Source of the DNA: Pseudomonadota bacterium
GTDB taxonomy: Bacteria > Pseudomonadota > Alphaproteobacteria > Caulobacterales > Caulobacteraceae
Direction of reading: 5' to 3'
DNA: 64,000 nt
Assembly: GCA_020161365.1 (NCBI GenBank)
Contig: JAIUNU010000002.1
Coordinates: 124,001-188,000, forward strand
Positions 56,558 through 61,343 of the stretch are shown here, piece by piece. A program made the translations under genes and the position numbers. The notes beneath the pieces were generated by a model. The model saw only the letters and a program-made list of their open reading frames with translations. It had not been told where the DNA came from and made no database searches. Every line of letters starts with the position of its first letter. Within the stretch, counting starts at the first letter, position 1.

Positions 56558-59314
56558 ATGAAACGAAGTGCGGTGATGGCCGGAGCGGCCCTCGGCGTGG
56601 TGCTGGCCTTCGGGGCGATGGGAGGGGCCACGGCGTCCGACCTGCCCTCGCCGGCGACGGCCTTCGCCCAGCCGGTCGGCAGCGACTATTTCCTGGCCGA
56701 CTACACCGCTTATGAGGCCTATCTGAAGGCGCTGGCCGCCAAGTCCGACCGCATGAAGCTGGTCGACATCGGCAAGACCGAGGAGGGCCGCACCCAATGG
56801 ATGGCGATCGTCTCCTCGCCCGCCAACCTGGCCAAGCTGGACCAGTACAAGACCATCGCCCGCAAGCTGGCCAAGGCCGACGGCGTCAGCGAGGCCGAGG
56901 CCCGCAAGCTGGCCGCCGAGGGCAAGGCCGTGGTGTGGATCGACGCAGGCCTGCACGCCAACGAGACCGTGACCTCGCAAGGCCAGATCCAGGTCATCCA
57001 CCAGATGCTGACGGGGACCGATCCTGAGACCCTGCGGTTCCTGGATGACTGCATCATCCTGTTCGCGCACGACAATCCCGATGGGATGGAGATGATCTCC
57101 GACTGGTACATGCGCAACGAGGACCCCAAGAAGCGGGAGTTCGGCTCGCTGCCGCGCCTGTACCACAAGTACATCGGCCACGATAACAACCGCGACAGCT
57201 TCATGTCGGCGATGGCCGAGACGACCAACGTCAACAGCCAGCTGTTCCGCGAGTGGTTCCCGCAGATCGTCTACAACCAGCACCAGACCGCGCCCAACGG
57301 CATGGTCGTGTTCGTGCCGCCGTTCCGCGATCCGGCCAACCACAACTACGACCCGCTGGTCATGACCATGCTGCAGGAAGTCGGCATGGCCATGCACAGC
57401 CGCCTGGTGGCCGAGGACAAGCCCGGCACCGGCGCGCGCAGCGCCGCCCCCTACTCCACCTGGCACAACGGGATGGAGCGCTCGATCGCCTATTTCCACA
57501 ACTCGATCGGCCTCTTGACCGAGATCACCGGCGGCCCGACCCCGTCGCCGATCAATCTGGTCCCCGATGTGCAGTTGCCCAGCAACGACCGGCCGGTTCC
57601 GATCGCGCCCCAGATGTGGCGCCTGCAGCAGACGCTCGACTACCAGGCCAGCCTGAACCGCTCGGTGCTCGACTACGCCTCGCGCAACCGCGAGCGACTG
57701 CTCTTCAACATCTGGAAGATGGGCGACAACAGCATCAAGCGCGGCAATCGCGACACCTGGACCATCACTCCCACCAAGGTCGACGCGCTGGCGGCGGCGG
57801 GTAAGGACAAGCCCCTGGCGGGCAGCCGGGGCGCGGTGGATCCTTCGCTCTACAAGACGATCATGCAGGCGCCCGAGCAACGCGACCCGCGCGGCTTCAT
57901 CCTGCCCGCCGACCAGGCCGACATGCCGACCGTGGTCGCCTTCCTGAACGCCCTGATCAAGGCTGGCGTCGACGTCGATGTCGCCGACAAGGCCTTCACC
58001 GTCGCCGGCAAGACCTATCCGGCGGGCTCCTATGTTGTGCGCACGGCCCAGGCCTATCGCCCGCATGTGATGGACATGTTCGAGCCGCAGGACCACCCGC
58101 ACGACACCGAGTATCCGGGCGGCCCGCCCAAGGCGCCATACGACGTCACCGGCTACACCCTGGCCTACCAGATGGGGATCAAGTTCGACCGCGTGCTGGA
58201 CGCGTTCGAGGCGCCGACCAAGCGCGTGCCCGACCTGATCAAGGTCGCGCCGGGTTCGGTGAAGGGCGCGGGCGGCGCGGGCTGGCTGATCAGCCACGAA
58301 ACCAACGCCAGCTTCACCCTGACCAACCGCCTGCTGAAGGCCGGCGCCAAGGTCCAGTGGCTCAAGGACGGCGCCAAGGCCGGCGGCAAGACCTTCGGGG
58401 CCGGCGCGATCTGGGTCCCCGCCTCCCCCGCCGCCAAGGCGGTGATCGACAAGGGCGTCAAGGACCTGGGGATCGACGCCTGGGCCGTCGCCGCCAAGCC
58501 GGCGGGCGCCGCCATCGCGCTGAAGCCGATCCGCGTAGGCCTGGTCGACATCTATGGCGGCTCGATGCCGTCGGGCTGGAACCGCTGGATGTTCGAGCAG
58601 TTCGAAGCGCCCTTCCAGGTCGTCTATCCGCAGCGCCTGGACGCCGGCGACATCGGCAAGGACTTCGACGTGCTGGTCTTCGCCGACGGCGTGGTGCCCG
58701 CCCCGGCCGATGGTCCGTTCCGCGCCGGCCGCGGCGGGGCCCAGCCCAAGCCCGAGGACATTCCGGCCGAGTACCGGTCGTGGCTGGGCCGCGTGACCGA
58801 TGAGAAGACCGTCCCCAAGATCGCCGAGTTCGTGAAGGGCGGCGGCACAGTCGTGGCCATCGGCGCCTCGACGCGCCTGGCCACCGCTCTGGGCGCGCCG
58901 GTCGAGGTGGCCACGGCCAAGACCGAGAACGGCCAGCTCAAGGCCCTCTCCAATCGCGAGCTCTACATCCCCGGCTCGATCCTGCGGGCCAAGGTCGATC
59001 CCAAGCAGCCCCTGGCCTATGGCGCGGGCGAGGAGGTCGACGTGTTCTTCGACCGCAGCCCGACCTTCACGATCAAGAGCGACGCCAAGGGGATCTCGCG
59101 GGTCTCGTGGTTCGACAGCGACAAGCCGCTGCGCAGCGGCTGGGCGGTCGGCGAGGAGCGGCTGAAGGGCTCGACGGCGATGCTCGACATCACCGTGGGC
59201 AAGGGCAAGGTCTTCGCCTTCGGCCCCGAGATCACCCAGCGCGCCCAGTCGTGGGGTACCTTCAAGTTCCTGTTCAACGGCCTGCTCTACGGGCCGGCGG
59301 TGAGCGGGAAGTAG
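56558..59314 (+). CDS. M14-family zinc carboxypeptidase, large exported form
   Basis: 918 aa with a signal peptide (MKRSAVMAGAALGVVLAFGA). Zinc-site elements are GLHANETVTSQG (His and Glu) and the later His in NQHQTAPNG. HDNNRDSF and HDNPDGMEMI are further family blocks, and the catalytic Glu is probable in LLTEITGG. The catalytic domain takes about the first 350 residues. The remainder contains more alpha/beta domains of unknown function, as in large M14 peptidases of Xanthomonas and Sphingomonas relatives. A weak GAAAG precedes ATG 56558. It acts in the periplasm on peptides. It is convergent with the gamma-glutamyltransferase gene. Confidence 0.88.
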   Translation: MKRSAVMAGAALGVVLAFGAMGGATASDLPSPATAFAQPVGSDYFLADYTAYEAYLKALAAKSDRMKLVDIGKTEEGRTQWMAIVSSPANLAKLDQYKTIARKLAKADGVSEAEARKLAAEGKAVVWIDAGLHANETVTSQGQIQVIHQMLTGTDPETLRFLDDCIILFAHDNPDGMEMISDWYMRNEDPKKREFGSLPRLYHKYIGHDNNRDSFMSAMAETTNVNSQLFREWFPQIVYNQHQTAPNGMVVFVPPFRDPANHNYDPLVMTMLQEVGMAMHSRLVAEDKPGTGARSAAPYSTWHNGMERSIAYFHNSIGLLTEITGGPTPSPINLVPDVQLPSNDRPVPIAPQMWRLQQTLDYQASLNRSVLDYASRNRERLLFNIWKMGDNSIKRGNRDTWTITPTKVDALAAAGKDKPLAGSRGAVDPSLYKTIMQAPEQRDPRGFILPADQADMPTVVAFLNALIKAGVDVDVADKAFTVAGKTYPAGSYVVRTAQAYRPHVMDMFEPQDHPHDTEYPGGPPKAPYDVTGYTLAYQMGIKFDRVLDAFEAPTKRVPDLIKVAPGSVKGAGGAGWLISHETNASFTLTNRLLKAGAKVQWLKDGAKAGGKTFGAGAIWVPASPAAKAVIDKGVKDLGIDAWAVAAKPAGAAIALKPIRVGLVDIYGGSMPSGWNRWMFEQFEAPFQVVYPQRLDAGDIGKDFDVLVFADGVVPAPADGPFRAGRGGAQPKPEDIPAEYRSWLGRVTDEKTVPKIAEFVKGGGTVVAIGASTRLATALGAPVEVATAKTENGQLKALSNRELYIPGSILRAKVDPKQPLAYGAGEEVDVFFDRSPTFTIKSDAKGISRVSWFDSDKPLRSGWAVGEERLKGSTAMLDITVGKGKVFAFGPEITQRAQSWGTFKFLFNGLLYGPAVSGK

Positions 59315-59329
59315 GGCTGAAAATAAGAT

Positions 59330-59566
59330 CGGCGCCGGACGGGGAAGTCCGGCGCCGAGTTCGTCTCGGGACGGTTGGAGACATCCGCGAGACGGCTACC
59401 GCTCCGGGGGTTGGCGTGAGCCGGAGCGGCCTGGTGTCGCCGGGGAGCTGGACCGGCGTCGGCGACGACCAAGGCGAAGGTGCGCCCGGCGCACCGCCCG
59501 GACATTGAGACAAATCAAACACGCTCGAAACGAAGTCGGCGCCGGAGGGGCAGCTCCGGCGCCGAC
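59330..59566. other. Run of five strong hairpins between convergent peptidase genes
   Basis: The 292-nt gap holds no gene but five inverted repeats in order. They are: CGGCGCCGGAC/GTCCGGCGCCG (59330-59357); CCGCTCCGG/CCGGAGCGG (59399-59429); GTCGCCG/CGGCGAC (59436-59466); GGTGCGC/GCGCACC (59479-59495); and GTCGGCGCCGGAG/CTCCGGCGCCGAC (59535-59566). The first and last are near-copies of each other. None has a long T-run. They could be bidirectional terminators or a structured small RNA. Confidence 0.6.
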
Positions 59567-59606
59567 AGATCGCGTCCCCTTGGATCAAAGGGGGGGAGGT
59601 AGACCC

Positions 59607-61343
59607 TCAGGGCGCGATCGCCTCGGCCCCCGGGCGACGCGGATCGGCGCCGCCGAGATAGAGACCCTGCTCGATCATGATCGACTGGGCCGAGCCCATG
59701 GTCTCGTCGGAGGTTATCGGGTGACCCATCGCCTTCAGGATGGCGACGGTGTCTGGATTGAAGTTCGGCTCGACGCGCAGGGTGTCGCTGGCGTCCTGGA
59801 AAATGCGCGGCTGGTGGGTGGCCTCGGCCACGTTCAGCTTGAAGTCGACGACGTTGACGATGACCTGCAGCACCGTGTCGATGATCGTGCTGCCGCCCGG
59901 CGTGCCGGTGATCAGCCACGGCTTGCCGTCCTTGAAGATCATGGTCGGCATCATGGTCGAGAGCACGCGCTTGCCCGGCTGCAGGGCGTTGGGCGGCGCA
60001 GGCTTGCCGCTCTTCTGCGCGCGCCACGCGGCCTCGTGAGCGTAGTTGTTCATCTGGTTGTTCAGCACGAAGCCCGCGCCGGCCACCATAACGCCCGAGC
60101 CGAAATCGGCTCCCAGTGTATAGGTGTTGGAGACCGCGTTGCCCTCGGCGTCGGCGACCGAGAAGTGCGTGGTGTTGGGGCTTTCGAACGCCCAGGGATC
60201 GCCGGCGCCCAGGTCCTTGGCGGGCGTGGCCTTGTCGGGATTGATCAGCTTGGCGCGCGCCGCGCCATAGGCCTTTGACGTGAAGCCCTGCAGCGGGACC
60301 TTCACGAAATCGGTGTCGCCCAAATACTTGTAGCGGTCGGCATAGGCCATCTTCATGGCCTCGGCCTGAAGGTGCAGGGTCTTGGCCGAGCCCAGGCCCG
60401 TCGCCTTCAGGTCGAAGGTCTCCAGGATGTTGAGCATCTCCAAGAGGGTCGCGCCGCCGGCGCTGGCGGGCGGCGAGGTCTTGACCGTCAGGCCGCGATA
60501 GCTGCCGACCAGCGGCTGGCGGATCTCGGCCTTGTAGGCGGCCAGGTCCTCCAGGGTGATCAGGCCACCATGGACCTTCATGTCGGCGGCGAAGCGCTGG
60601 GCGATCTCGCCGCGGTAGAAGGCGTCGGCGCCCTTGTCGGCGATCTGGCGCAGCGACCAGGCCAGCTCGGGCTGCTTGAGGACCTCGCCGGCGCGATAGA
60701 GCTCACCGCCGGCCTTGTAGAAGGTCTGCTTGCCGGCCTCGCTCTCGGACAGGCGCTGCTTGCCCCAGCTGAAGACGAACGCCTCGTCGGGCGACAGGGC
60801 CACACCGTCGGCGGCCAGGCGATAGGCCGGTTCGACCACCTGCTTCCAGGGCAAGCGACCATACTTCTGATGGGCCAGATAGAGGCCCGCGACCGTGCCC
60901 GGAACGGTGGGCGCGCGATAGCCGCGCGACGCCACGTCGTCCATCTCCTTGCCATTCTCGTCGACGAAGGTCTCAAGCTTGGCGGCCTTGGGCGCGACGC
61001 CGCGATAGTCGATGAAGATCGTCTCACCCGTCTTGGCCAGGTGGACCATCATGAAGCCGTCGCCGCCGATATTGCCGGCGCGCGGCAGGGTCACGGCCAG
61101 AGCAAAGGCGGTGGCGACGGCGGCGTCCACGGCGTTGCCGCCCTGGCGCAGGATGTCGCCGCCGACCTTGGTGGCGATGGCGTTCTGGCTGACCACCATG
61201 CCCCGCTCGCCCACCACCGGCGAGTGGATGCTGGGATACTCCAGCAGCTGCTTCTTCTGGGCCAGCGCCTCGGACGAGACGATGGGCGAGAGCGCCAGGG
61301 CGAAGACCGTGGCGGCTGTGGCGAGAAGGCGGAAGGGTTTCAA
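59607..61343 (-). CDS. ggt: Gamma-glutamyltransferase
   Basis: 578 aa, Ntn-hydrolase family. Signal peptide MKPFRLLATAATVFALALSP. The N-terminal subunit has the blocks GNAVDAAVATAFALAVTLP and DYRGVAPKAAKLETF. The autocleavage nucleophile is the Thr in NTTHFSVADAEGNAVSNTYTL, and GSGVMVAGAGFVLNNQMNNY and GTPGGSTIIDTVLQVIVNVVD close the small subunit. It transfers or hydrolyses gamma-glutamyl groups of glutathione-like compounds in the periplasm. It lies 65 nt downstream of a TonB receptor on the same strand, so the two are probably co-transcribed and may serve peptide or glutathione use. Confidence 0.94.
   Translation of the reverse strand: MKPFRLLATAATVFALALSPIVSSEALAQKKQLLEYPSIHSPVVGERGMVVSQNAIATKVGGDILRQGGNAVDAAVATAFALAVTLPRAGNIGGDGFMMVHLAKTGETIFIDYRGVAPKAAKLETFVDENGKEMDDVASRGYRAPTVPGTVAGLYLAHQKYGRLPWKQVVEPAYRLAADGVALSPDEAFVFSWGKQRLSESEAGKQTFYKAGGELYRAGEVLKQPELAWSLRQIADKGADAFYRGEIAQRFAADMKVHGGLITLEDLAAYKAEIRQPLVGSYRGLTVKTSPPASAGGATLLEMLNILETFDLKATGLGSAKTLHLQAEAMKMAYADRYKYLGDTDFVKVPLQGFTSKAYGAARAKLINPDKATPAKDLGAGDPWAFESPNTTHFSVADAEGNAVSNTYTLGADFGSGVMVAGAGFVLNNQMNNYAHEAAWRAQKSGKPAPPNALQPGKRVLSTMMPTMIFKDGKPWLITGTPGGSTIIDTVLQVIVNVVDFKLNVAEATHQPRIFQDASDTLRVEPNFNPDTVAILKAMGHPITSDETMGSAQSIMIEQGLYLGGADPRRPGAEAIAP

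Follow-up and report, generated by a model that had tools for sequence, protein, structure and literature searches.

A predicted small RNA with a putative FixK-activated promoter in a hairpin-rich gap of a Caulobacter clade

The question raised by this locus is what a series of GC-rich hairpins does between two convergent genes. In the window, the stretch of 64,000 nucleotides that was analysed, these genes are an M14 zinc-carboxypeptidase gene (PF00246; 56357-59314, plus strand) and the gamma-glutamyltransferase gene ggt (59607-61343, minus strand), the product of which matches TIGR00066 above its cut-off. An earlier note on this DNA had described several GC-rich inverted repeats in the gap, the first and last being near-identical, and both observations were confirmed. 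The gap contains five long hairpins, all GC-rich, and a short palindrome, and the 295 nt from 59312 to 59606 have a folding z of -5.61 on the plus strand and -6.33 on the minus strand, i.e., about -6 on both, none of 200 dinucleotide shuffles being equal in either case. The outer hairpins (59329-59358 and 59535-59566) have the arm CGGCGCCGGA in common, with 77% identity between the 43-nt stretches that surround them. These hairpins are several parts and not one element, and the two outer ones are separate terminators, not the ends of one element. The best explanation is that the gap contains, on the minus strand, the gene of a small RNA about 150 nt long, with its own class II promoter activated by an FNR-family protein, most likely FixK, and ending at the left hairpin, the right hairpin being the terminator of the upstream gene. 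Judged from the sequence, this reading has a probability of about three in four. The promoter footprint, the four covarying stem-loops, the directional terminator and the persistence of the unit without ggt are features of the DNA itself.

Relatives of the locus were sought by a DNA search of 61 genomes and by a search of each flanking protein in 61 genomes of the genus, and the matching gaps were read. The whole unit was retrieved in ten of 75 Caulobacter genomes (G000, G078, G069, G026, G032, G071, G080, G081, G003, and G030), and no such unit was found in the other 65; G029, with its gap at contig ends, lay outside this judgement. A peptidase fragment with an identity of 82% or more is present in 18 genomes; ten of them possess the unit, which is about half of the close relatives, and the remaining eight, despite having the most similar peptidase neighbour, do not. 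Because ten of these 18 carry the unit, it looks ancestral to the clade defined by the peptidase and was probably lost more than once. The promoter is present in Caulobacter sp. 602-1 (L089) and in a metagenome-assembled genome labelled C. vibrioides 32-67-7 (L093); C. vibrioides DSM 9893 (L088) has neither unit nor promoter at the place adjacent to the peptidase gene. In the stretches read, the unit lies in the gap adjoining that gene in nine of the ten genomes, and in G030 it is found about 1.4 kb away from it. Furthermore, half of the ten have no ggt orthologue: G003 and G030 showed no ggt match at E <= 1e-100, and the best ggt-like proteins of G071, G080, and G081 are only 47-48% identical. 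Therefore, the RNA does not depend on ggt, and G080 has lost this gene and retained the small RNA.

The predicted RNA (59319-59470, minus strand), with its start deduced from the promoter and its end from the U tract, consists of four stem-loops. Stem-loop 1 (59433-59470) contains GGUCC in its loop (59450-59454), and six of its 13 pairs are changed on both sides; stem-loop 2 (59398-59430) contains CGCCA in its loop (59412-59416), with eight of 14 pairs changed on both sides; and stem-loop 3 (59362-59394) contains the C-containing loop UCUCCAAC, with five of ten pairs changed in this way. Stem-loop 4 (59329-59358), the predicted intrinsic terminator of the small RNA, has a perfect stem of 12 bp followed by a U tract (59319-59328). 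Folded alone, the 152-nt transcript has a z of -6.39, with none of 200 shuffles as good, and each of the ten predicted transcripts, folded singly, forms four stem-loops. GGTCC (loop region 1) and CGCCA (loop 2) are present in all ten. Similarly, loop 3 has CUCC or a C run in all of them (CCCCC or CCCUA in most relatives), and loop 4 contains C in some. The idea of C-rich loops is weakened by G080, G003, and G030, as in these three the share of C is no higher in the unpaired part than in the whole RNA. A protein-coding transcript was rejected, no ATG, GTG, or TTG position being common to all ten predicted RNAs. A TTG at 13-15 is shared by G080, G003, G030, and G081, its frame being open to the end in three of them and 38 codons long in G003; a minus-strand frame of 72 amino acids has its start at 59505, upstream of that predicted for the RNA.

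Both outer hairpins possess the features of an intrinsic terminator, namely a GC-rich stem and then a U-rich tract in the direction of transcription. Stem-loop 4 was matched in a terminator scan on the minus strand only, and in the nine genomes that keep it, the next 10 nt contain seven to eight T on the minus strand and three to five on the plus strand; in G081, the 3' hairpin is replaced, giving a different 3' end. The predicted ggt terminator (59535-59566, minus strand), with a perfect stem of 13 bp and the U-rich tail TTCGTTTCG, was also matched in the scan on the minus strand, and the corresponding counts in the ten genomes are five to seven and one to four. This hairpin is retained in relatives without the small RNA (e.g., L088, L062, L065, and L068).

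The earlier note had proposed covariation in related genomes as a check, with a lack of conserved pairing as the adverse outcome, and the pairing turned out to be conserved. As MAFFT placed stem-loop 1 wrongly when all sequences were aligned, a covariance model (R1) was built from three close sequences, eight sequences were aligned to it, and the model was rebuilt as R2. The fitting of this alignment of eight sequences (R1/A6) to the R1 structure biases it towards that structure. Of its 371 cells, 94.9% are paired, and changes on both sides occur in 21 of 52 pairs and in 28 cells, 19 of these 21 pairs falling within stems 1-3. Shuffled controls gave means of 6.0 pairs and 6.5 cells (none of 500 as high), and controls with slid alignments gave at most five pairs and six cells. 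The alignment includes G081 despite its replaced 3' hairpin; G000 and G078 are absent from it, as they missed its E-value limit.

R1, for which three of the ten had served, reached E <= 0.01 in 13 of the 75 Caulobacter genomes, namely the ten and G090, G001, and G064. The match in G090 lies inside a coding sequence, and those in G001 and G064 overlap the ggt-side hairpin. The seven unit genomes outside the training of R1 had E values from 1.6e-10 to 5e-3. Similarly, R2, built from eight sequences, ranked the same ten at the top of the 75 (E <= 3.1e-8) and, built without the window genome, matched 59320-59473 on the minus strand at an E value of 3.0e-9. Neither G000 nor G078 was in its training set, and their scores of 50.6-54.9 bits are modestly above the 45 bits that palindromic terminators alone can reach with R2 (an opposite-strand match), their membership resting also on synteny, promoter and loops. 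At E <= 0.01, R2 had a match in 34 of the 75 genomes, ten of which are real units; the matches from 5.1e-7 down, part of which were inspected, include opposite-strand and neighbouring-terminator matches. The weak matches L147, L161, L163, L164, L165, and L166 were checked by hand and rejected, having no box-plus-CAnnnT promoter, and this promoter was not found at L149, L150, L162, and L167-L169 either. Among 199 genomes of the family, the genus included, R2 had a match at E <= 0.001 in 12, five from the genus and seven others; the best E value of these seven was 6.0e-5, and the three inspected were all without the promoter.

Upstream of the predicted RNA, an FNR/FixK-type box (TTGATTTGTCTCAA; 59505-59518, minus strand) was found, with TTG-N7-TCAA at the equal place in all ten genomes that carry the unit. 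A predicted -10 element, CACCTT (59477-59482, minus strand), lies 22 nt past the box, and CAnnnT occurs at that spacing in all ten. Class II activator sites of the FNR family are centred at -41.5, which places the -10 element exactly at CACCTT and the start of the RNA near 59470. The ten-genome footprint reads TTG.......TCAA.G.c...g..........ggcGCA...T (capitals being identical in all ten), the half-sites of the box and the -10 element standing out against a variable spacer. The short palindrome GTGCGCCCGGCGCAC (59480-59494) lies in this spacer, overlapping the -10 element and outside the predicted RNA; it is not intact in G078. The box of the window genome has one departure from TTGAY-N4-RTCAA, and a TTGCG form occurs in five of the ten genomes. 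This TTGCG form is also tabulated for the FnrL site of hemN of Rhodobacter sphaeroides (TTGCGcaggATCAA; table in PMC2908626).

As a yardstick for this promoter, the cbb3 oxidase gene ccoN was located in the window genome and the 34 kb around it were read. The boxes upstream of ccoN, an OmpW gene, and a CRP-family gene agree with TTGAY-N4-RTCAA at ten, nine, and ten of the ten positions, respectively, the sequences 22 nt past them being CATCCA, CAAATT, and CAAGAA; by its place, the CRP-family gene is probably ftrB. According to PMC3751524, ccoN, ompW, and the CRP-family gene ftrB of C. crescentus are activated by FixK and possess a FixK site; this species reportedly uses FixK and has no FNR (PMC2908626). 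One further nine-of-ten box in the 34 kb, as well as a box at the fixK locus, has no CA at the 22-nt distance. In the whole genome of 4.43 Mb, the box with its spacing was matched 12 times and a reversed control pattern not at all, and at this rate about 0.0008 matches are expected per 295 bases. Several of the 12 sites fall inside long open frames; at six of them, ten frames were examined, one being the M14 peptidase, and the only other proteins identified were a cell wall hydrolase and an oxidoreductase with a flavodoxin fold.

The regulators are encoded in the window genome as well, a FixJ-like and a FixK-like protein side by side. The former has a response receiver and a LuxR-type domain, and the latter is closest to FixK2 among solved structures (E value of 1.9e-52 versus 1.5e-23 for the best FNR-type entry). 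The fixK-like frame is preceded by a ten-of-ten box, and beside this frame lies a small cysteine-bearing one, with no Pfam match, which is read as FixT-like. Cytochrome bd subunit I (PF01654) was not found in G000, the window genome; it is present in a named C. vibrioides control genome. For the small RNA, we infer transcription, induction at low oxygen and dependence on FixK.

An activator from the CRP/FNR family other than FixK, for a small RNA otherwise as described, is unlikely. The boxes of such proteins overlap and the genome has six matches above cut-off to the CRP helix-turn-helix family; however, of the five CRP-like proteins among these six, FixK alone lies beside FixJ in the regions read, and the reported lack of FNR in C. 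crescentus (PMC2908626) also speaks for FixK. It is quite unlikely that a FixK-controlled minus-strand RNA acts in cis, e.g., on read-through or on the 3' end of the mRNA from the convergent M14 peptidase gene. Indeed, the RNA would end on the opposite strand within a few bases of the stop codon of this gene (59314), and nine of the ten units adjoin the peptidase gene, but the unit of G030 is about 1.4 kb distant, and constant loops on drifting stems are not required of a simple antisense RNA. The chances are just as low that the gap contains terminators only, with outer hairpins ending the flanking genes and middle hairpins that are functionless GC-rich sequence. Both outer hairpins are good terminators and the genes are convergent, yet this would not account for middle stems that covary in ten genomes, for the conserved promoter footprint, or for a unit that persists where ggt is gone.

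A dispersed repetitive palindromic element (REP- or BIME-like) is by far the least probable. Near-identical outer hairpins in inverted orientation would suit such an element, but the genome-wide hairpin search suggested in the earlier note retrieved CGGCGCCGGA-N2..9-TCCGGCGCCG at two places only in 4.43 Mb, both inside the peptidase-ggt gap, which contradicts a dispersed repeat for the window genome, and nothing else in the genome convincingly matches the gap as a whole (best E value on another contig, 0.05). A plasmid-borne copy was rejected too, the one match being to the peptidase coding sequence. An RNA-processing element, also proposed in that note, gained no support; the small RNA that it suggested finds support in ten genomes, where pairing and promoter footprint are conserved and the terminator is directional.

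At the gathering score, Rfam 15 matched one tRNA elsewhere in the window and nothing in the gap, and gave no matches in nine homologous loci. No published account of this RNA was found in a literature search largely without preprints and subscription papers. The small RNA appears to be new, but small RNAs under FNR-family control are already known. FnrS of Escherichia coli, an FNR-activated small RNA according to PMC8139620, is likewise a small RNA with an FNR-family box (here in a predicted promoter) and a low-oxygen response (here presumed), whereas the activator here is most likely FixK. Similarly, RSs0019 and RSs2461 of R. sphaeroides, presented in PMC4263372 as FnrL-bound and uncharacterised, are by description alphaproteobacterial small RNAs with FNR-family sites in putative promoters, but with FnrL instead of FixK. 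SisA-D (alphaR8 family) and RusT of C. crescentus resemble the present RNA as Caulobacter small RNAs with intrinsic terminators (PMC12559287 and PMC11005374); the main texts of these papers do not mention FixK or hypoxia, and the present RNA, in contrast, has no Rfam match.

The sX13 RNA of Xanthomonadaceae (RF02232), the C-rich loops of which are described as Hfq-independent repressors of mRNAs that have G-rich motifs close to the start (PMC3771888), also has strong stem-loops with C-containing apical loops. Full-length matches to sX13 reached 27 bits in the window and 35.5 bits in L145 (G069), with none for L139 (G080) among the matches listed. Membership was rejected, the best score being below the gathering score of 50, and these sub-threshold matches point to a similar shape, not to membership. 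sX13 has three stem-loops and the present RNA four, the locus is another one, and a FixK-type promoter is found here.

The most likely course of events is that FixL and FixJ sense low oxygen and FixK is made, which would bind the box and start minus-strand transcription; this transcription would stop at stem-loop 4, and the right hairpin would stop transcription from the upstream gene. More tentatively, the constant loops (GGUCC, CGCCA, and the C-containing loop 3) on changing stems may pair with other mRNAs, and the C-containing loop might pair with G-rich ribosome-binding sites, lowering translation when oxygen is scarce. The latter is a guess that draws on two analogies, sX13 and the anti-Shine-Dalgarno motif reported to be in use in Caulobacter Sis RNAs (PMC12559287). 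It is conceivable, though rather doubtful, that this new small RNA family is the RNA branch of the low-oxygen response run by FixLJ and FixK in a single Caulobacter clade. Its four rigid stem-loops would then carry constant loops on drifting stems as separate sites that bind mRNAs or a protein and, as in sX13, would act by loop contacts and not through a long single-stranded seed. Caulobacter is a model genus, the FixK response of which is known through protein-coding genes. If true, control of a small RNA by FixK would bring a post-transcriptional layer into this response and could account for those genes that fall at low oxygen but have no FixK site. The absence of the unit from C. vibrioides DSM 9893 at this place may partly explain why the RNA went unnoticed, and laboratory strains of C. 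crescentus probably do not have it either.

Some further observations concern the gap and the box. In loci without the small RNA (L088, L062, L065, L068, and L116), the gap contains other inverted repeats, e.g., of the GGGGGAGG/CCTCCCCC and CCCCGGCGAAAGCCGGGG types; the gap after the M14 peptidase gene is a site of frequent replacement in these loci, the right hairpin staying. In G080, a 29-residue remnant of the ggt C-terminus lies beside the small RNA (L121, 2711-2797). In most genomes having both terminators, that of the small RNA and that of the upstream gene have their stem arms in common and differ in loops and tails, the likeness of the arms perhaps resulting from duplication or gene conversion. 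Lastly, in G000 (C7:114370-114411, L178) a box (TTGATCAGGGTCAA) is followed after 22 nt by CAAGCT, ahead of the flavodoxin-fold oxidoreductase frame, which may be a further FixK target.
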